From an uncultured SAR86 cluster bacterium (lineage in GTDB: Bacteria; Pseudomonadota; Gammaproteobacteria; Magnimaribacterales; D2472): DNA of 41,281 bases. The position numbers were made by a program, and so were the translations under genes. The notes beneath the pieces are model-generated. The model searched no databases. It was not told the origin of the DNA and was given only the letters and a program-made list of their open reading frames with translations. Shown in pieces: positions 32,135 to 41,281 of the stretch. Positions within the stretch are counted from its first letter, which is position 1; each line of letters opens with the position of its first letter. The stretch spans positions 1-41,281 of the forward strand of contig CABXNE010000008.1 in assembly GCA_902513515.1 (NCBI GenBank), read 5' to 3'.

Positions 32135-34288
<2,154 letters not shown>

Positions 34289-34326
34289 TTAAAATCCCAC
34301 TAAAAAGCTGTGGTATATAAAAATCT

Positions 34327-34343
34327 TACATATTTTATATGTA
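34327..34343. promoter_or_regulatory. 17-bp AT dyad upstream of katG
   Basis: TACATATTTTATATGTA has perfect 7-base arms around TTT. It lies 60 to 76 bp upstream of the katG start, between katG and the 3' end of the SnoaL-like gene. A palindrome here could bind a peroxide- or iron-responsive regulator, or simply be AT-rich sequence. It lacks GC pairs for a terminator. Confidence 0.35.
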
Positions 34344-34361
34344 TTGGTAAATATCTAAACG

Positions 34362-34832
34362 TTATTGAGGCGTTTCAATAGTATCTGTTTTTTGCCATTG
34401 CAAATTAAAATTTCTATTTACAAATTTAACAATGCCGTCTCTTCTTTCAAGGGTATCTTCGTAAATAATCCCCATATCTAATTTCTTCATTTCTCCATTT
34501 TCTTCAAATATGTGGCTTGCTATGCAATATGTATTTCCTTTATAAATATCTCCTTCCCAAGATCCATCTATGTTTCCAATAAAATGCATAGTCTTACTAT
34601 ATGTCGCAACTAAATAATCCATTGCGCCCATAAAACCCTCAATACCTTTTAAGTCGTAGCCACCTGTCATAGAAAAATCAGTCCACATAATTGAATCCAA
34701 CTCTTCAAAATTTCTTGAATCTACAATTTCAGCATATTGGTAAATAACTTTTTTGGCTTCATTATTTATTTCCATAGTATTTGCTCCTAAAAAAATTGGG
34801 ATAAAAATAATTAAAAAAAATACTTTCTTCAT
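34362..34832 (-). CDS. Secreted SnoaL/NTF2-like protein
   Basis: The 156-residue protein has a signal peptide (MKKVFFLIIFIPIFLGA). It then shows an NTF2-like (SnoaL) cone fold pattern: INNEAKKVIYQYAEIVDSRNFEELDSIMWTDF, where a helix with the D..NFEEL..I motif precedes the first strand, then MDYLVATYSKTMHFIGNIDGSWEGD and RDGIVKFVNRNFNLQWQK. The fold is used by isomerases, dehydratases and binding proteins, so the reaction is unknown. The export signal is unusual for enzyme members. It ends 94 bp before katG and begins 30 bp after the LLM gene, possibly in one transcript. Confidence 0.65.
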   Translation of the reverse strand: MKKVFFLIIFIPIFLGANTMEINNEAKKVIYQYAEIVDSRNFEELDSIMWTDFSMTGGYDLKGIEGFMGAMDYLVATYSKTMHFIGNIDGSWEGDIYKGNTYCIASHIFEENGEMKKLDMGIIYEDTLERRDGIVKFVNRNFNLQWQKTDTIETPQ

Positions 34833-34862
34833 AAAACCCTCGCTTTCTGCTGATCCATTTAA

Positions 34863-35753
34863 TTACAAGTTACTTAAATCACTTATAGCATTTAAAACTG
34901 GGGCAATGTCATCTTTCGAACGAACAAAATTAATTGGAAATATCTCAATTTCAGTCAGCCCAGCAGCAATAGACTTTTCTGCTTGCTTTAGGGTTAGCTC
35001 TAGATTGGGCGCTCCAGAATCATCAATCTGTGTAGGTAATTGCCCTCTAATCCTTGGCATTTCTGTTCTATTATTTTCATTGAAGGCAGAACTTAATAAT
35101 TCTTTTCCGCTTGCAATAAAGTCCGCATCAGTTTTTATTGGAATCCATCCATGACCAATCTTTGATATTTTTTGTGCATTTATTTCGGTCATTTTTAAAC
35201 CAAATAATAATGGTAAGTCTGATCCCTGAACTGGCTGCGGTTGACACCAGATATCATTAAATTTAAAAGTATTGCCTTCAAAAGAAGCAGGGCTTTTTTC
35301 CCATAATAATTGGCAGATTTCTAACGTCTCCCAGAAAATTTCAGATCTTTTTTCAAATGGAACACCTGCGGTATGATACTCCTCTGCTTGCCATCCCATA
35401 CCAACCCCTAATTCCAACCTGCCCTTTGAAATAGTGTCTATTGTTGCGGCTGTTTTTGCTAATAAGGCTGGATTTCTTAAGGGAGCAATTAAAACTGCGG
35501 TGCCTAAGTGTAATTTGGTAGTGTGTGAAGCAATCATTGTTAAGACAGTTAAAGGCTCATACCATGGGGCTTCAGAAGGCAAAGGAAAAGTTCCAAAGGG
35601 ATATTTATTAAGATTCTTTCCCATTACAACATGATCAGTAAGACTGACGCCATGAAACCCGATTTCCTCTGCAGATTGAGAAATATCAATATATGAATTT
35701 ATATCGCCATCAAAAAAATTATGAAGTCCAAACAAACCAGCTATTAATTTCAT
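34863..35753 (-). CDS. LLM-class flavin-dependent oxidoreductase (luciferase/F420-like)
   Basis: The 296-residue protein is a TIM-barrel of the bacterial luciferase superfamily. It uses FMN or F420 to oxidise or reduce small substrates. Landmarks are AEEIGFHGVSLTDHVV at about 28-43, KLHLGTAVLIAPLRNPALLAKTAATIDTISKGRLELGVGMGWQAEEY in the middle, and the later GHGWIPIKTDADF. The RLELGVGMGW motif is typical of the TIGR03619-type subgroup. F420 synthesis is rarely found in gammaproteobacteria, so FMN with a reductase partner is likely, but the cofactor cannot be told from sequence alone. The start MKLIAGLFGLHNF is the family's beginning. Confidence 0.82.
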   Translation of the reverse strand: MKLIAGLFGLHNFFDGDINSYIDISQSAEEIGFHGVSLTDHVVMGKNLNKYPFGTFPLPSEAPWYEPLTVLTMIASHTTKLHLGTAVLIAPLRNPALLAKTAATIDTISKGRLELGVGMGWQAEEYHTAGVPFEKRSEIFWETLEICQLLWEKSPASFEGNTFKFNDIWCQPQPVQGSDLPLLFGLKMTEINAQKISKIGHGWIPIKTDADFIASGKELLSSAFNENNRTEMPRIRGQLPTQIDDSGAPNLELTLKQAEKSIAAGLTEIEIFPINFVRSKDDIAPVLNAISDLSNL

Positions 35754-35835
35754 TAATGCACCCCCACATTAAATATATCTTATTTATTGTACGAAGAATT
35801 TTACTCTAATGCACTTTCAAAGGAATTTTTAAAAT

Positions 35836-36549
35836 TTAGATCACCAGCATCAATGCTAAAAATGATAAAAGTAATTTTAAAAAGATATTAAAACTCTCGT
35901 ATGTAATTGTAGATATTAATCTTTTGCCTAAAGTTGCGCCTGCAAATCCAGCTATAGCCAAAATAAAGATAAAGAGAAGGTAATCTTGAATGGAAAAACT
36001 AAAAAAATAAGTAAATAAAAGTATCTTAATGGCATGCTGGAAAATCATAACTGCTCCATGATTTGCTACTAGCACTTCTGGTGATAATTTCTTTGTTCTC
36101 ATGTATGCAGTTACCAATGGTCCATTTGCGCCAACAAAAATACCTGCGAAGCCAGATATAAATCCACAAAACCAATCATTTCGCATGACCGAAAGAATAA
36201 AATTATCTAATGGAGCCCATGTAAAGAAAATTATTGTTCCAGCTATTAACCATAAAAGTATTTGCTCTGACAAAGAACCAAATAAAAAAATTCCTGCCAC
36301 AGCACCAAAAATAGTAGCAATTAAAATATTCTTTATGAGAATCCATTGAAAGAACTCCTTATATACAAATACTCTTGATAAATTATTAGCCAATTGAATC
36401 GATCCATGAAGCGGAATAAGGGTTCCTGGTGAAAAAGATTGAGCTAAAGCAACAAGCATAATTATGCCTCCACCAACACTAAAAATAGAAGTAAGCAAGG
36501 ATGTCAAAAAAGAAAGTATTGCAAAGAAAGTAATAAACTCTACTGACAT
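35836..36549 (-). CDS. TauE/SafE-family permease (sulfite/anion exporter)
   Basis: The 237-residue protein has about seven to eight membrane spans and the TauE/SafE (DUF81) arrangement of two repeats. Repeat 1 contains SVGGGIIMLVALAQSFSPG, repeat 2 contains SGFAGIFVGANGPLVTAYM. The family exports sulfite, sulfoacetate or related anions or imports others; a specific substrate cannot be given. It diverges from the GH3 gene with 42 bp between starts. The start MSVEFITFF is the only Met before the first span. Confidence 0.85.
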   Translation of the reverse strand: MSVEFITFFAILSFLTSLLTSIFSVGGGIIMLVALAQSFSPGTLIPLHGSIQLANNLSRVFVYKEFFQWILIKNILIATIFGAVAGIFLFGSLSEQILLWLIAGTIIFFTWAPLDNFILSVMRNDWFCGFISGFAGIFVGANGPLVTAYMRTKKLSPEVLVANHGAVMIFQHAIKILLFTYFFSFSIQDYLLFIFILAIAGFAGATLGKRLISTITYESFNIFLKLLLSFLALMLVI

Positions 36550-36591: not shown

Positions 36592-39039
36592 ATGAAAGAA
36601 ATAGATCAAATCATCAATCATTTAACCTTAGATGAAAAAGTTTCTCTTCTCAGTGGTTTTAATTCCTGGTACACAAATAAAATTGAGCAAAAAAATATTC
36701 CAAGCATCAAAATGTCCGATGGTCCAAATGGAGTGCGGGGAGATTCTAATTCAGGAAAATCTTCTGCTTGTTTCCCTTGCGCTATCTCAATAGGATCTAC
36801 ATGGGATCTCGATCTGATTAAGAAAATTGGAGTTGCTTTGGGAGAAGAAGCTCAAGCAAAAGATGTTGATGTTCTATTAGGCCCAACCATAAATATTCAC
36901 AGACATCCTTTGGGAGGGAGGCATTTTGAAAGTTTCTCTGAGGATCCATTTTTAACTGGAAAAATTGCAACCAATTATGTTCAGGGCGTTCAATCTCAAG
37001 ATGTTGCAGCCTGTTTAAAGCATTTTGTTGGGAATGATACTGAGTATGAGAGACATTCAATAAGCTCTAATATTGATGAGAAAACTCTGAGAGAAATATA
37101 TTTACTTCCATTTGAGATGGGCGTCAAGCAAGGAAATGCAAAAGTTGTAATGAGTGCATATAACAAATTAAATAATATCTATTGTAGTTCTCATCAAGAA
37201 TTATTAATTCAAATCTTAAAGAAAGAATGGGGTTTTGATGGATATGTTGTTAGTGACTGGGGGGCTGCCCTTGAAACCGAAGAAAATGCAAATGGTGGGT
37301 TAGATCTTGAAATGCCAGGGCCTGGAAATGTCTGGGGGAAAGCTCTAATTAGTGCTGTTAAAGCTAAAAAAGTTTCTGAAGATTTGATTAATGATAAAGT
37401 TAAAAGAATCTTATCAGTTGCAGAATTTTCTAAACGTTTCGATGAACCAAATATTAAAAATGAAGAAGCTCTTGATCGGCCGGCACATAGAAAGCTATTA
37501 AGAAAAGCTGCAGCAGATGGAATGGTTCTTTTAAAAAATGAAGGCTTACTGCCTCTTAAAAAAGATATTAAGAAACTGGCAATTATTGGTCCTAATGCTA
37601 AAGAGGCACAAATTATTGGTGGTGGCAGTGCGAGCCTGAGACCTCACTATCAAATTCACCCTCTTGAAGCACTCCAACAAAGACTTGGATCTGAAACAGA
37701 AATTTTGTACTCCAAGGGTTGTCATACGCATAAATATCTCCCAAGGATCAATGAAAAGCTAATGGCTGATACAGATGGTTTCTTGGTTGAATACTTTGAT
37801 GGAAATAATTTTAATGAGGGCTTAATTTTAGAAGAGCGCTTGATAGGGAGTAAATTTTGGGTTTTTGAAGGCTTTGCAAAGGATGTAATCTCAAAAGAAG
37901 AAAGGCCAAATATTTCTGTAAAGTTTTCTTGTGAATATACTCCAGATATTTCTGGTCAACATGAATTTGAAATTTTTGGCATTGGTCAATGCCGTTTACT
38001 AATTAATGACAAGGAGCTAATTGATAATTGGAATAATACAGATCCAGGTGAAGCCTTCTTTACTTTTGGCTCTGCTTCTAGAAGAAGCATCGCAGATTTT
38101 CAGAAAGGGAAAACTTATAGAATTGAAATGCAGTATCATTTTGAAGGAAGTTTCCCTGCTGTCTATATAGGTTGCCGGCCTCCTGATGAGGTAGATTTAT
38201 TTGCAGAGGCCATAGAAGCTGCATCAAATGCAGAAGAAGTTGTTTTGATAGTAGGGACCAATTCAGATTGGGAAACGGAAGGAAACGACAGAGCTAATTT
38301 TGATTTGCCTGCTAATCAAAATAAATTAATTGAAGCAATTTTAGAAGCCAACCAAAATACAGCCTTGGTTATAAATACAGGGTCGCCAGTTAACATGCCT
38401 TGGGCAAACAAGGCAAATGCCATAATACAAACATGGTTTGCTGGGCAAGAATTTGGAAATGCTTTGTTTGATATTTTATCAGGCGAAGTTAATCCATCTG
38501 GGAAATTGCCAACATCATTCCCAAAAAACATTGAGGATACTCCAGCTTATAAATCATATCCTGGAATGGATTTGCAAATGAACTACGATGAAAAACTCTT
38601 AGTTGGTTATAGGTGGTATGAAAAGAATTCTACAAAGCCTTTATTTTGCTTTGGTCATGGTCTGTCATTTACGAAATTTAAATATGAGAATATCGATGTA
38701 ACGATAGAGAGCAATATGGAAGTATCATGCAAATTTACCATTCAAAACACTGGAAATATGACGGGGTTAGAAACGGCTCAATGCTATGTAGGCTTTTCAG
38801 ATCCTCTGCCTGATGAGCCTTTAAAGACTTTGCAAGGTTTTGTTAAAACAAATGTAGAGTTAAATGAAGTTAAAAATTTAGAAATAAGACTAACCCCCAG
38901 AAATTTCTCTCATTGGTCAGTAGATACTAAAACCTGGCAAATTAGAGGAGGTTCTTATCAAATTTTTATTGGCTCTTCCTCAGAAAATATTCATCTGAAA
39001 GCCATCATCAATCTTGAGCAAGTGCTAGAAGTTCTTTAG
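36592..39039 (+). CDS. GH3 beta-glycosidase with an inserted PA14 domain
   Basis: The 815-residue enzyme is a glycoside hydrolase family 3 (beta-glucosidase-like) with the order GH3 N-domain (about 35-270), GH3 C-domain interrupted by a PA14 domain (about 400-535), then the rest of the C-domain and a fibronectin-III-like end (about 690-800). The nucleophile is Asp222 in YVVSDWGA. Substrate-binding residues KHFVGNDTEYERH are at 143-155. PA14-like text includes FLVEYFDGNNF and LLINDKELIDNW. No signal peptide is present, so it acts in the cytoplasm on imported sugars. The gene overlaps the Gfo/Idh-AKR fusion at its 3' end by 32 bp. Confidence 0.95.
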   Translation: MKEIDQIINHLTLDEKVSLLSGFNSWYTNKIEQKNIPSIKMSDGPNGVRGDSNSGKSSACFPCAISIGSTWDLDLIKKIGVALGEEAQAKDVDVLLGPTINIHRHPLGGRHFESFSEDPFLTGKIATNYVQGVQSQDVAACLKHFVGNDTEYERHSISSNIDEKTLREIYLLPFEMGVKQGNAKVVMSAYNKLNNIYCSSHQELLIQILKKEWGFDGYVVSDWGAALETEENANGGLDLEMPGPGNVWGKALISAVKAKKVSEDLINDKVKRILSVAEFSKRFDEPNIKNEEALDRPAHRKLLRKAAADGMVLLKNEGLLPLKKDIKKLAIIGPNAKEAQIIGGGSASLRPHYQIHPLEALQQRLGSETEILYSKGCHTHKYLPRINEKLMADTDGFLVEYFDGNNFNEGLILEERLIGSKFWVFEGFAKDVISKEERPNISVKFSCEYTPDISGQHEFEIFGIGQCRLLINDKELIDNWNNTDPGEAFFTFGSASRRSIADFQKGKTYRIEMQYHFEGSFPAVYIGCRPPDEVDLFAEAIEAASNAEEVVLIVGTNSDWETEGNDRANFDLPANQNKLIEAILEANQNTALVINTGSPVNMPWANKANAIIQTWFAGQEFGNALFDILSGEVNPSGKLPTSFPKNIEDTPAYKSYPGMDLQMNYDEKLLVGYRWYEKNSTKPLFCFGHGLSFTKFKYENIDVTIESNMEVSCKFTIQNTGNMTGLETAQCYVGFSDPLPDEPLKTLQGFVKTNVELNEVKNLEIRLTPRNFSHWSVDTKTWQIRGGSYQIFIGSSSENIHLKAIINLEQVLEVL

Positions 39040-41011
39040 CAGATAGTTCGATTTTTGATGCTTGAATGGAACTGTTGGTTTCAAAGATAGTTCTTGGTCC
39101 AATCAGTGGAAAAATTAGATGAGATTTGTGCAGTACGTATGCAAGGGCAATTTGGATGGGTTGCACATTCCTTTGTTCGGCTATTTCAAAGCATTTCTGC
39201 CTTCTATTTAAATTTATTTCATAGTGCCAAACTCTCATCTCTTCATCCAAGGTAGGATTTGAAAAATGCTCATTGGACATTATCTCTTTTTTCTTAATAA
39301 AGAATCCTCTTGCTTGAGAAGACCAAGGAAATAACATTATGCTCTCTTCAATTAGGTATTTTAAATAAGCATCATTAACTCCGACACATCCTGGCCATAC
39401 CGGTTCAACCATTTCAGCTAAACTAAAATTATTGCTAAGTACATTGAATGGTTCTTTTTTATTTTGAATTGCATAAGTTCTTGCTTGTGAAAATCTCTCT
39501 AGTTCCCAATTTGATGCACCTATTAAATCAATTAAACCCTCATCTTTAATTTCATCTATTGCATCTACAAATTCATCTACTGGAACATCTAAGTTATCTC
39601 TGTGCAAACAGAAGATGTCAAATTTTGAAACCTGAAGGCGCTCAAGAGATTCCAGTATTTGAGGACGGATGTACTTGGGCTCACATTCGGGTGTATGAGC
39701 TCCCTTGCCGAGAACTATAACCTCTTTTTCTAACTGCCTAGAGTTTATCCAATCGCCAAGATACTTATCGCCCTTTCCATGGTTATATATATAAGCAGTA
39801 TCAAAAATTCTGCCGCCAGAACCAAAGAAATGGTCAAACATCGTAAACGCATGAAGATCAGAAGTTTGGTTATCACACCCTAAAGCTAATCTTGAACCAA
39901 GCTTTTTTACGCCTGGTACTTGAACGTTTTCAAGTTGTGGTTTTTGTAATAAGTAAGCTTGGGATTTAAATATTGGAGAGTAGTTAATAGAGCTTTTTGG
40001 ACATTCTATTTTTATTTCTTGCCTCCACCTATCAAGCCAAAACATATTACTTTGGGTCTCAGCATGTGAAATAAATTCAGATTCTATTTTATTTTCTAAG
40101 ATGCACTTTGCTGCATGCTCGATCTCTCTTGTAAATAAGCCAGATTCATCAATGCATTTAATTTCTCTTTGGTTATTGCCTGCATGCGATAAATATATAG
40201 ATGATTTTCCTTCTTGGAATTGTCCACAATGCCATGGCTCAGGAACATTGATGGAATATTCGCCGCTTGATATCAGAAGATTATTAGAAAGCTCTTCATT
40301 AATTGCGCAACTTATTTTTGCCTCGATGGTCTCAGAAAATATTAGATGGGCATGTGACTGGAGATCAACACCGGTTGTATCTAACTGGCCTTTTGCAGAA
40401 AGATTTTTTGGGTCTAGAAAAAATAAGCCCTGTAAATGACCGGCTATCAGTTTGGCCATTGTGAGCGGATAACACCCAATATCTAATATTGCCCCTCCTC
40501 CCAAGTTAGGGTTTCTTAGTCTATGGTCAGCCGATACATCTGCCTTAAACCCAAAAGAGGCTTCAATCAAAACTTTTTCTTTAGCGTCTAAAATAAAATT
40601 TAAGTTATCTAGAATATTTTTTGTCTGAGGATGGGTTCTATACATAAATGCTTCCATTAAAAATACATTTGATAAATTGGCTAAATCCAAAAGAATCATG
40701 CTCTCGTAGGCATTCATGGTGAATGGTTTTTCACAAAGGACATGCTTGCCACTTTTGATTGCTTCTAACGTATAAAAAAAATGTTCGCTATGAGGAGTTG
40801 CAATATATACAGCATCTATTTCCGCTGAGGATATAAAATCAATCAAGTTATGATGAGCATCTATGTGAAACTTTTCGGCAAAACTGTTTGTTTTATTTGG
40901 ATTTCTTCCAAATACACTAATTAATCTAGAATTTTCTGCGGTCTTTATAGATTGAGCAAATGCTGTGGCTATGGACCCTGGACCAATTACCCCCCAGTTA
41001 ATTTCATCCAT
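39008..41011 (-). CDS. Fusion of Gfo/Idh/MocA oxidoreductase and aldo/keto reductase
   Basis: From ATG 41011 (AGGAAG seven bases upstream) the protein has 667 residues; an earlier ATG at 41038 lacks such a site and starts before the first conserved strand. The N-half (about 1-325) is a Gfo/Idh/MocA enzyme: NAD(P)-binding WGVIGPGSIATAF, IATPHSEHFFYT, then LCEKPFTMNAYES and FLMEAFMYRTHPQ. It most resembles the dihydrodiol dehydrogenase-like group. The C-half (about 355-667) is an aldo/keto reductase: FDTAYIYNHGKG (Asp and Tyr), VLGKGAHTP (Lys), FCLHRDN (His), so the catalytic tetrad is complete. Both should be active. It overlaps the transporter by 8 bp, suggesting a sugar-oxidation role for the product of GH3. 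Confidence 0.88.
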   Translation of the reverse strand: MDEINWGVIGPGSIATAFAQSIKTAENSRLISVFGRNPNKTNSFAEKFHIDAHHNLIDFISSAEIDAVYIATPHSEHFFYTLEAIKSGKHVLCEKPFTMNAYESMILLDLANLSNVFLMEAFMYRTHPQTKNILDNLNFILDAKEKVLIEASFGFKADVSADHRLRNPNLGGGAILDIGCYPLTMAKLIAGHLQGLFFLDPKNLSAKGQLDTTGVDLQSHAHLIFSETIEAKISCAINEELSNNLLISSGEYSINVPEPWHCGQFQEGKSSIYLSHAGNNQREIKCIDESGLFTREIEHAAKCILENKIESEFISHAETQSNMFWLDRWRQEIKIECPKSSINYSPIFKSQAYLLQKPQLENVQVPGVKKLGSRLALGCDNQTSDLHAFTMFDHFFGSGGRIFDTAYIYNHGKGDKYLGDWINSRQLEKEVIVLGKGAHTPECEPKYIRPQILESLERLQVSKFDIFCLHRDNLDVPVDEFVDAIDEIKDEGLIDLIGASNWELERFSQARTYAIQNKKEPFNVLSNNFSLAEMVEPVWPGCVGVNDAYLKYLIEESIMLFPWSSQARGFFIKKKEIMSNEHFSNPTLDEEMRVWHYEINLNRRQKCFEIAEQRNVQPIQIALAYVLHKSHLIFPLIGPRTIFETNSSIQASKIELSAKELLALAQD

Positions 41012-41281
41012 TGGTTGGCTTCCTTTCCTCAATTTCATTGATTAATTTTTGATGAAAGCTTTTGTCGATAGGGTAAAAAGAAACCAATACAAAACTAATA
41101 AAGATACCTACTAAAGGTATCCAAGTCATAATAAATTTTAACTCTGATAAGGTTTGCTCAGACTGAACCTCGTTAGGTTCAAAACCAATTTGAGTTAGTA
41201 CCATGCCAAGCAAAACTGCTGCAAATGCTATCGCGCCTTTTTGAGCAAAAGTCATAAATCCATATAAAGAAGATTCTGTTC
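41004..41281 (-). CDS. MFS (GPH/MelB-type) sugar transporter, C-terminal fragment
   Basis: The frame is open through the right edge, so this is the C-terminal end of a longer gene. The visible 91 residues read SSLYGFMTFAQKGAIAFAAVL and end EIEERKPTNG. They contain two membrane spans, about 18-32 and 52-72, and a soluble tail. The F-x-x-K-G/A-x-A pattern resembles the last helices of glycoside-pentoside-hexuronide symporters. It overlaps the fusion gene by 8 bp, which supports a sugar-import and oxidation operon. Family certainty is limited by the fragment. Confidence 0.7.
   Translation of the reverse strand, partial: TESSLYGFMTFAQKGAIAFAAVLLGMVLTQIGFEPNEVQSEQTLSELKFIMTWIPLVGIFISFVLVSFYPIDKSFHQKLINEIEERKPTNG

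Follow-up and report, generated by a model that had tools for sequence, protein, structure and literature searches.

INTRODUCTION

Oxidoreductases of the Gfo/Idh/MocA superfamily (Gfo enzymes) use NAD(P) to oxidise the hydroxyl groups of sugars or to reduce keto-sugars, and AKRs (aldo/keto reductases) reduce carbonyls, mostly with NADPH. In aldose–aldose oxidoreductase and glucose–fructose oxidoreductase, oxidation and reduction share a single active site and a single bound cofactor. Dimeric dihydrodiol dehydrogenase is reported to double as a D-xylose dehydrogenase (PMC2228372); DepB is described as an AKR reducing 3-keto-DON in the two-step epimerisation of deoxynivalenol, where the epimer arises from an oxidising enzyme plus the reducing AKR (PMC9427786); and the levoglucosan pathway LgdA–LgdB1–LgdB2–LgdC begins with oxidation by a Gfo enzyme and ends with a reduction (PMC7676230). 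In the present study we analysed a gene at positions 39008–41011 of a 41281-nucleotide stretch of DNA from an uncultured SAR86 cluster bacterium (contig CABXNE010000008.1; the whole stretch is called the window), which encodes a Gfo half and an AKR half on one chain of 667 residues. The superfamilies of both halves are known, and fusion sequences are already in public records, labelled only 'aldo/keto reductase' or 'Gfo/Idh/MocA family oxidoreductase' after either half. Judging from sequence and gene context, the fusion may be a redox-coupled oxidoreductase of sugar catabolism with two active sites, acting on a glycoside-derived sugar, a reading to which we give a probability of roughly 0.4.

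RESULTS AND DISCUSSION

The fusion is genuine and widespread

The gene runs on the minus strand from an ATG at 41011 to a stop at 39008 and encodes 667 residues without interruption; its open frame extends further, to an ATG at 41038, and the plus-strand reading of the same positions is full of stops. Pfam matched GFO_IDH_MocA (PF01408) to residues 4–120 (8.7e-23), GFO_IDH_MocA_C3 to residues 148–238 (4.8e-6, at 27 bits, exactly its cut-off of 27) and Aldo_ket_red (PF00248) to residues 381–663 (8.3e-45). No NCBIfam equivalog exceeded its cut-off, the best of the 15 families found at E ≤ 0.001 scoring 65.8 bits against a cut-off of 355. An earlier reading, made from the DNA letters alone (the sequence-only reading), had described a Gfo–AKR fusion of this length at these positions with its strand left unstated, and Pfam and the translation bear it out.

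The fusion frame was found, free of internal stops, in 37 of 60 related genomes (the window's own included), 36 of these frames spanning at least 656 residues and the remaining one (G002) residues 50–667. Only a fragment (residues 1–194), at the start of a contig, was found in G016, and the tally becomes 50 of the 60 if standalone relatives are counted too. The copy in G019 is uninterrupted and 97% identical to that of the window; together with the 37 genomes that hold the frame, it rules out an assembly or frameshift artefact, an error that the sequence-only reading had named as fatal to its claim. A contig search of genomes gave 353 stretches that encode a relative, and the best 80 of the 353 were analysed. 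Outside SAR86 the carriers among these 80 belong to other Pseudomonadota, Actinomycetota, Chloroflexota, Planctomycetota, Verrucomicrobiota, Armatimonadota, Abditibacteriota, Elusimicrobiota and Omnitrophota, so that intact homologues occur in nine named phyla. Plasmid records, mostly of Rhizobium and Sinorhizobium, gave 222 matches at E ≤ 1e-25 (195 over at least 80% of the query) and 206 at 1e-30 (193 over at least 80%). The fusion is also present in 20 of the 199 genomes of one alphaproteobacterial family, with 21 copies; we take this family to be Rhizobiaceae because the operon of one member (G312) is 94–98% identical to that of Rhizobium etli p42b. Sinorhizobium meliloti 2011 carries the fusion on pSymA (1287465–1289438). 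A sample of 299 genomes of the phylum contained 11 with a match to the AKR half at E ≤ 1e-20: the window's own, nine with fusion-length frames and one with a 342-residue frame (G105).

Carriers in many phyla, on plasmids and in rhizobia rule out a local SAR86 curiosity. The sequence-only reading had stressed that the two enzymes are normally separate and had proposed looking for the same fusion and its neighbours elsewhere. That search succeeded, in the 37 related genomes, the nine phyla and the plasmids; the fusion is real, but the local oddity that the remark implied is not, the fused form being a widespread family. No adjacent separate genes of the same two subfamilies were noticed among the matches listed, in searches that started from the fusion or its AKR half. 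In the open literature, with most subscription journals outside its reach, no title or abstract opening described the fusion or the S. meliloti fusion gene.

Both active sites are invariant and the linker is nearly fixed in length

The conservation of the two halves was assessed in an alignment of 78 rows, made up of the window, 50 further rows of an alignment that also served for structure prediction and 27 rhizobial loci. The Gfo set Glu94, Lys95, Pro96, Asp177 and Tyr181 and the AKR tetrad Asp404, Tyr409, Lys436 and His470 were identical in 78/78 rows, in agreement with the sequence-only reading that both halves keep their catalytic residues (an EKP motif and an Asp-Tyr-Lys-His tetrad). We take the tetrad residues to have their catalytic roles from the usual AKR spacing and from alignment with known AKRs. 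Arg36, Arg125, Arg164, the stretch His470-Arg471-Asp472-Asn473, Ser500, Asn501 and Trp563 were likewise invariant across the 78 rows, Arg640 was kept in 74 and Glu644 in 77, and the linker spacing from Trp329 to Lys370 was 38–44 residues in 77 of them. A second alignment of 90 rows, from which 4 of 110 loci are absent, gave the same picture. When the window was compared with seven close SAR86 copies, the ratio of non-synonymous to synonymous substitution rates (dN/dS) was 0.08–0.13 for the Gfo half, 0.07–0.19 for the AKR half and 0.13–0.28 for the linker (five computable pairs), rough values, as dS came close to 1 or exceeded it in all but one of the seven pairs. Decay of one half is not supported, given both invariant catalytic sets and the low dN/dS of both halves.

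In a tree of the AKR half, 58 fusion rows clustered together, apart from 12 standalone AKR rows (support 96), and in a tree of the Gfo half the 58 rows clustered apart from 10 standalone Gfo rows (support 82); the samples of standalone proteins are small, and the trees drew long-branch warnings. Both half-trees recover subclades of SAR86, of rhizobia and of other bacteria, and the fusion is probably of single origin. Since the linker length is nearly fixed, both sites are invariant and the fusions form a single group in both trees, the joining appears to have been kept by selection. An AlphaFold2 model of the whole chain (predicted local distance difference test score 92.8, predicted template modelling score 0.92; residues 575–584 unsure) suggests that the two halves are held in a fixed arrangement, as one two-domain body.

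In the Gfo family an arginine after the second Rossmann strand is the pattern for NADP(H), and Arg36 at this place suggests that the Gfo half would use NADP(H). The signs in the AKR half are mixed. Its Arg640 aligns with Arg-290 and its Glu644 with Gln-294 of DepB (DepB numbers taken from the alignment); Arg-290 is named for NADPH specificity, and negative residues at Gln-294 are reported to have compromised NADPH binding (PMC9427786). Arg640 would thus speak for NADPH and Glu644 against it.

A glycosidase and a symporter accompany the fusion in SAR86

The gene neighbourhood of the fusion was compared over 34 SAR86 loci drawn from the best 80 of the 353 stretches. A glycosidase gene of glycoside hydrolase family 3 (GH3) lies within one or two genes of the fusion in 33 of them, the other (L043) stopping at a contig end. 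A GPH-type sugar symporter gene stands directly upstream in 28, overlapping the fusion by 1–17 bases in 26 loci and by 35 and 104 bases in two, according to the frame calls made here; of the six loci without it, one (L058) stops at a contig end and five (L059–L063) have other genes at that place. Both neighbours had been pointed out by the sequence-only reading and are confirmed in the window. Over the 60 genomes, 37 hold fusion and GH3, three GH3 alone, 20 neither and none the fusion alone (37, 3, 19 and 1 if the G016 fragment is counted), a co-occurrence with a Fisher p of 4e-13 (1e-11 with the fragment) when relatedness is ignored. The two genes are adjacent in 26 of the 37 genomes, 1.5–13 kb apart in five and on different contigs in six; in one of these six (G028) both lie near contig ends, and in the other five (G036, G040, G049, G055 and G058) they seem unlinked, yet the genomes hold both. 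By group, both genes are present in 21/26 genomes of the same genus, 2/10 of the rest of the family, and 6/8, 8/8 and 0/8 of the families f2, f3 and f4 respectively. The link to glycoside use that the sequence-only reading had drawn is supported by this co-occurrence (37/37 fusion genomes with GH3) and by the rhizobial operons described below.

The three genomes with GH3 alone are of different kinds. The GH3 of G035 is partial, and in G054 the contig ends where its relatives have the fusion. In G014 the gene order is informative: the gene beyond the missing pair directly follows GH3 (L159), so that the fusion and the symporter seem truly to have been lost together with GH3 kept. The SAR86 GH3 protein is nearest to beta-glucosidases (552 bits).

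In family f2 (L148–L152, L154 and L158) a conserved island surrounds GH3. It includes an FAD enzyme nearest to alkyl-DHAP synthase, a PhnZ-like HD protein directly before GH3, a short-chain dehydrogenase/reductase (SDR), a rhomboid protein, a DUF3604 protein and more GPH symporters, with TonB receptors and a Rieske oxygenase in some loci. No coherent pathway with the fusion and GH3 emerged from the genes of this island.

A sugar transporter accompanies the fusion in rhizobia

The 27 rhizobial loci comprise 20 of the 21 copies of the alphaproteobacterial family (the G102 copy was left out) and seven plasmid records hand-picked from the 222. Parts of a CUT1 sugar ABC (ATP-binding cassette) transporter adjoin the fusion in 26 of the 27: 18 with an R. 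etli-type binding protein, four of the S. meliloti type with a ROK regulator, three of a third type and one more (L201); L200 has a PotC-like ABC permease in place of the CUT1 transporter. A GH42 gene adjoins the fusion in three loci (L127, L188 and L201) and a GH2 gene lies nearby in another three (L193, L196 and L202), the two GH2 proteins scanned having beta-galactosidase GalA as best match, far below its cut-off. Of the solved proteins, 6h0h comes closest to the R. etli-type binding protein (102 bits); it is Bal6GBP, a beta-1,6-galactobiose-selective protein encoded with a GH42 (PMC8106489). The binding protein of the S. meliloti type is nearest to the solved AcbH (187 and 179 bits), which binds beta-D-galactopyranose (PMC8233162). 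As these two solved proteins have galactose or galactobiose as ligands, the analysis points to galactose or galactosides as the putative rhizobial substrate, within the limits of assigning a ligand by way of a relative. The SAR86 GH3 is nearest to beta-glucosidases, and the SAR86 sugar may therefore differ from the rhizobial one. On pSymA, SMa2295 has been placed at 1278398–1278609, some 9 kb from the fusion, and the S. meliloti 2011 copy is a tractable test case.

The many rhizobial operons with a transporter and the fusion but no named glycosidase bring in the idea that the fusion itself serves the cleavage of the glycoside: the Gfo half would oxidise beside the glycosidic bond, elimination and hydration would follow, and the AKR half would reduce the product, much as in the levoglucosan pathway, but with both redox steps on one chain. 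Gfo enzymes do start such pathways, that of levoglucosan being the example (PMC7676230). On the other hand, ordinary hydrolytic glycosidases accompany the fusion in SAR86 and in 6/27 rhizobial loci, and no elimination or hydration partner was recognised, in scans that included no family search aimed at one. We consider redox-assisted cleavage quite improbable.

Neighbourhoods differ in other clades

Outside SAR86, 118 operon-mates were collected in 53 loci, and 30 of them were scanned. In a locus of Elusimicrobia (L105), the fusion, a GH3 gene and an FGGY kinase gene stand in a row, the GH3 being nearest to xylosidase/arabinosidase models and the kinase to xylulokinase, both below cut-off; in a locus of Verrucomicrobia (L104), a GH42 gene lies two frames from the fusion. 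The L105 row agrees with an isomerisation via a polyol, in which the AKR half would reduce an aldose to an alditol, the Gfo half would oxidise the alditol to a ketose and an FGGY kinase would phosphorylate the ketose, the fusion standing in for an aldose isomerase. In keeping with such a role, xylose isomerase (TIGR02630) was found in 0/60 genomes of the SAR86 order and was matched in 6/14 control genomes. Against it, the second FGGY kinase of the window's genome falls below the xylulokinase cut-off and adjoins a glycerol-3-phosphate dehydrogenase gene, FGGY proteins over the cut-off occur in 54/60 genomes, with and without the fusion, and the rhizobial operons show no kinase among the genes that could be named. 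The polyol route therefore appears very improbable to us, and the case for one ending in xylulokinase in SAR86 is weak.

In some other gammaproteobacteria (L064, L077, L081, L097 and L107), PhyH-type and LpxA genes on the same strand stand immediately upstream of the fusion. LpxA of L077 and L064 is over its curated cut-off, PhyH was recognised in the scan of L081, and the neighbours in L097 and L107 were assigned by gene order and clustering only. These genes give hints of a putative lipid or sugar-nucleotide role in this clade. Neighbourhoods that vary between clades, with LpxA 35 bases upstream of the fusion in L077, would suit a loose partnership, in which the fusion would serve to express or assemble the halves together, while their substrates would be separate and would vary from clade to clade. 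The near-fixed linker length, the invariance of both sites and the single group in both trees speak against such a partnership, and of all the explanations we rate it the least probable.

A proposed role in sugar catabolism

The core of the operon is a transporter plus one two-site enzyme, which suggests a conversion that is complete in itself and redox-neutral, and a self-contained conversion of this kind favours a reading in which one half oxidises and the other reduces, with a sugar derived from a glycoside as the substrate. A beta-glycoside or sugar would enter through a dedicated transporter, the GPH symporter in SAR86 and the CUT1 ABC transporter in rhizobia. Any accompanying glycosidase (GH3, GH42 or GH2) would split the glycoside in the cytoplasm. 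The Gfo half, by means of Lys95, Asp177 and Tyr181, would then most likely oxidise a hydroxyl, and the AKR half, by means of Asp404, Tyr409, Lys436 and His470, would most likely reduce a carbonyl, the pair being redox-neutral and turning the imported sugar into one acceptable to central metabolism. We infer the cytoplasmic location, the direction of each half, the shared cofactor pool, the common sugar and the galactose-like nature of the rhizobial sugar.

The sequence-only reading had put forward channelling of a sugar oxidation followed by a reduction, or cofactor recycling between the two sites, and either may apply. Within the proposed redox coupling, we favour either a single intermediate passing through both sites (epimerisation or isomerisation) or, as the main rival, dismutation with cofactor recycling. 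In the former case the fusion would be a two-site redox-neutral epimerase or isomerase: a galactose-type sugar released from a beta-glycoside would be converted at one site to a keto-sugar or polyol and at the other to the epimer or isomer that central metabolism takes up, the cofactor moving back and forth between the halves; in this specific form the idea is tentative and on balance unlikely. In the latter case the Gfo half would act as an aldose 1-dehydrogenase that makes a lactone from a sugar, while the AKR half would reduce an aldose or an aldehyde; each would have its own substrate molecule (two sugars, or a sugar and an aldehyde aglycone), and only the cofactor would be recycled between them. 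In favour of dismutation, the nearest solved relative of the Gfo half, dimeric dihydrodiol dehydrogenase, is also a D-xylose dehydrogenase (PMC2228372). Aldose–aldose and glucose–fructose oxidoreductases also match the Gfo half, and its closest standalone relative among the matches listed (30% identical, residues 5–338) adjoins xylose transport and xylulokinase genes. However, a gluconolactonase-type protein (PF08450) was over cut-off in 0/26 genomes of the window's genus, although lactones can open unaided, and an operon of only a transporter and a dismutase offers little obvious gain. Dismutation is unlikely in our view, though the main rival.

Several observations weigh against the proposed coupling on a glycoside-derived sugar. 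Glu644, kept in 77/78 rows, takes the place of Gln-294 of DepB, at which negative residues are reported to have compromised NADPH binding. In SAR86, GH3 occurs without a fusion match in 3/60 genomes, the GH3 match is split into two pieces in G002 and G023, and the Fisher test treats related genomes as independent. In rhizobia, 18 operons have a transporter and the fusion with no glycosidase among the genes that could be named. Elsewhere the neighbours are HtrA-like, queuosine and PTS-enzyme-I-like genes (L071), a transketolase gene (L086), sulfatase and amidohydrolase genes (L095), cyclase and PcRGLX-like genes (L096 and L108), two further Gfo proteins and an SDR (L100), or the LpxA and PhyH genes of L064, L077 and L081. 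The neighbours in several other clades are not sugar genes and one universal role is therefore doubtful; one universal substrate across the clades is unlikely.

If the two sites are coupled, the family would mark a step in the use of glycosides by SAR86 and rhizobia that has so far gone unrecognised. Should the epimerase or isomerase version be true, it would be a sugar route without sugar nucleotides or phosphorylated intermediates, spread over many phyla, from ocean SAR86 to legume symbionts.

Layout of the locus

The features of the gene and its neighbours are given in Table 1. The GH3 and fusion genes converge, their 3' ends sharing 32 bases, and the start of the fusion shares 8 bases with the 3' end of the symporter gene. 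No signal peptide was seen by eye in the GH3 protein. Beyond GH3, on the minus strand at 32135–36549, Pfam recognised genes for a KatG-like peroxidase, a luciferase-like monooxygenase and a TauE-type transporter, the order of which is kept in several genomes of the window's genus.

Table 1 Positions of the fusion gene, its functional parts and the adjoining genes in the window
Feature	Position	Strand	Basis
Gfo/Idh/MocA–AKR fusion gene, 667 residues (with stop codon)	39008..41011	-	Open reading frame, Pfam, homologues
Gfo/Idh/MocA half, residues 4–338	39998..41002	-	Pfam, fold match
E94-K95-P96 motif, Gfo half	40724..40732	-	Translation, alignment
D177 to Y181, acid and tyrosine of the putative Gfo active site by family resemblance	40469..40483	-	Translation, alignment
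Linker, residues 339–370	39902..39997	-	Model, alignment
AKR half, residues 371–664	39020..39901	-	Pfam, fold match
D404, AKR tetrad	39800..39802	-	Translation, alignment
Y409, AKR tetrad	39785..39787	-	Translation, alignment
K436, AKR tetrad	39704..39706	-	Translation, alignment
H470, AKR tetrad	39602..39604	-	Translation, alignment
GH3 gene, 815 residues, PA14 and Fn3-like domains, convergent with the fusion	36592..39039	+	Open reading frame, Pfam
GPH-type sugar symporter gene, 3' end, cut by the contig end	41004..41281	-	Open reading frame, Pfam

Comparison with known systems

No solved chain covering both halves was present among the listed sequence matches, and none of the 50 Foldseek rows was long enough. 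In fold comparison of the Gfo half, the highest score among the matches listed was that of dimeric dihydrodiol dehydrogenase (Z 42.2, model residues 3–340, root mean square deviation 1.8 over 315 residues), followed by the 3-ketoreductase KijD10 (Z 39.3) and then aldose–aldose oxidoreductase (Z 37.8); glucose–fructose oxidoreductase had a Z of 36.5. The nearest solved relatives of this half act on sugars or sugar-like diols. For the AKR half, DepB (Z 33.3 and 33.1) and Tas (Z 33.0) led the matches listed, with DepB-type AKRs aligning to model residues 358–667. Several fold alignments ran on to model residues 578–585 or 641–643, which may hint at an AKR loop near the Gfo half.

Dimeric dihydrodiol dehydrogenase, alias NADP-dependent D-xylose dehydrogenase (2o48), also gave the Gfo half its highest profile score (208 bits). 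It has a lysine and a tyrosine at places matching those of the fusion, but it is without an AKR half and only 23–24% identical to the fusion. The closest standalone Gfo relative among the matches listed, which has xylose transport and xylulokinase genes beside it, lies on a Vibrio plasmid (L129:5983–6984) and is 30% identical over residues 5–338. The best profile match of the AKR half was DepB (7utf and 8hwn, 114 bits), which differs in being a separate protein with a different substrate and in having Gln-294 where the fusion has Glu644. A standalone AKR of the same subfamily in a Listeria record (L126:8001–8954) is 35% identical to the AKR half and shares with it the motifs HRDN, SNW, NFSLA and WSSQAxGFF, but it is without a Gfo half, and its neighbours are annotated as PTS (phosphotransferase system), glucosamine-6-phosphate deaminase (NagB-like) and sugar phosphate isomerase/epimerase genes.

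The levoglucosan pathway resembles the proposed role of the fusion in placing oxidation first and reduction last in one sugar conversion; unlike the fusion, it consists of four separate proteins, and the abstract of its description names no AKR (PMC7676230). Aldose–aldose oxidoreductase (5a02–5a06) and glucose–fructose oxidoreductase (1ofg) are Gfo-type enzymes named for coupling the oxidation of one sugar to the reduction of another. In contrast with these, the fusion carries no export signal before its Rossmann fold and has two sites on two unrelated folds; if the two sites are coupled, it would exemplify a natural pairing of two unrelated oxidoreductase folds on one chain.

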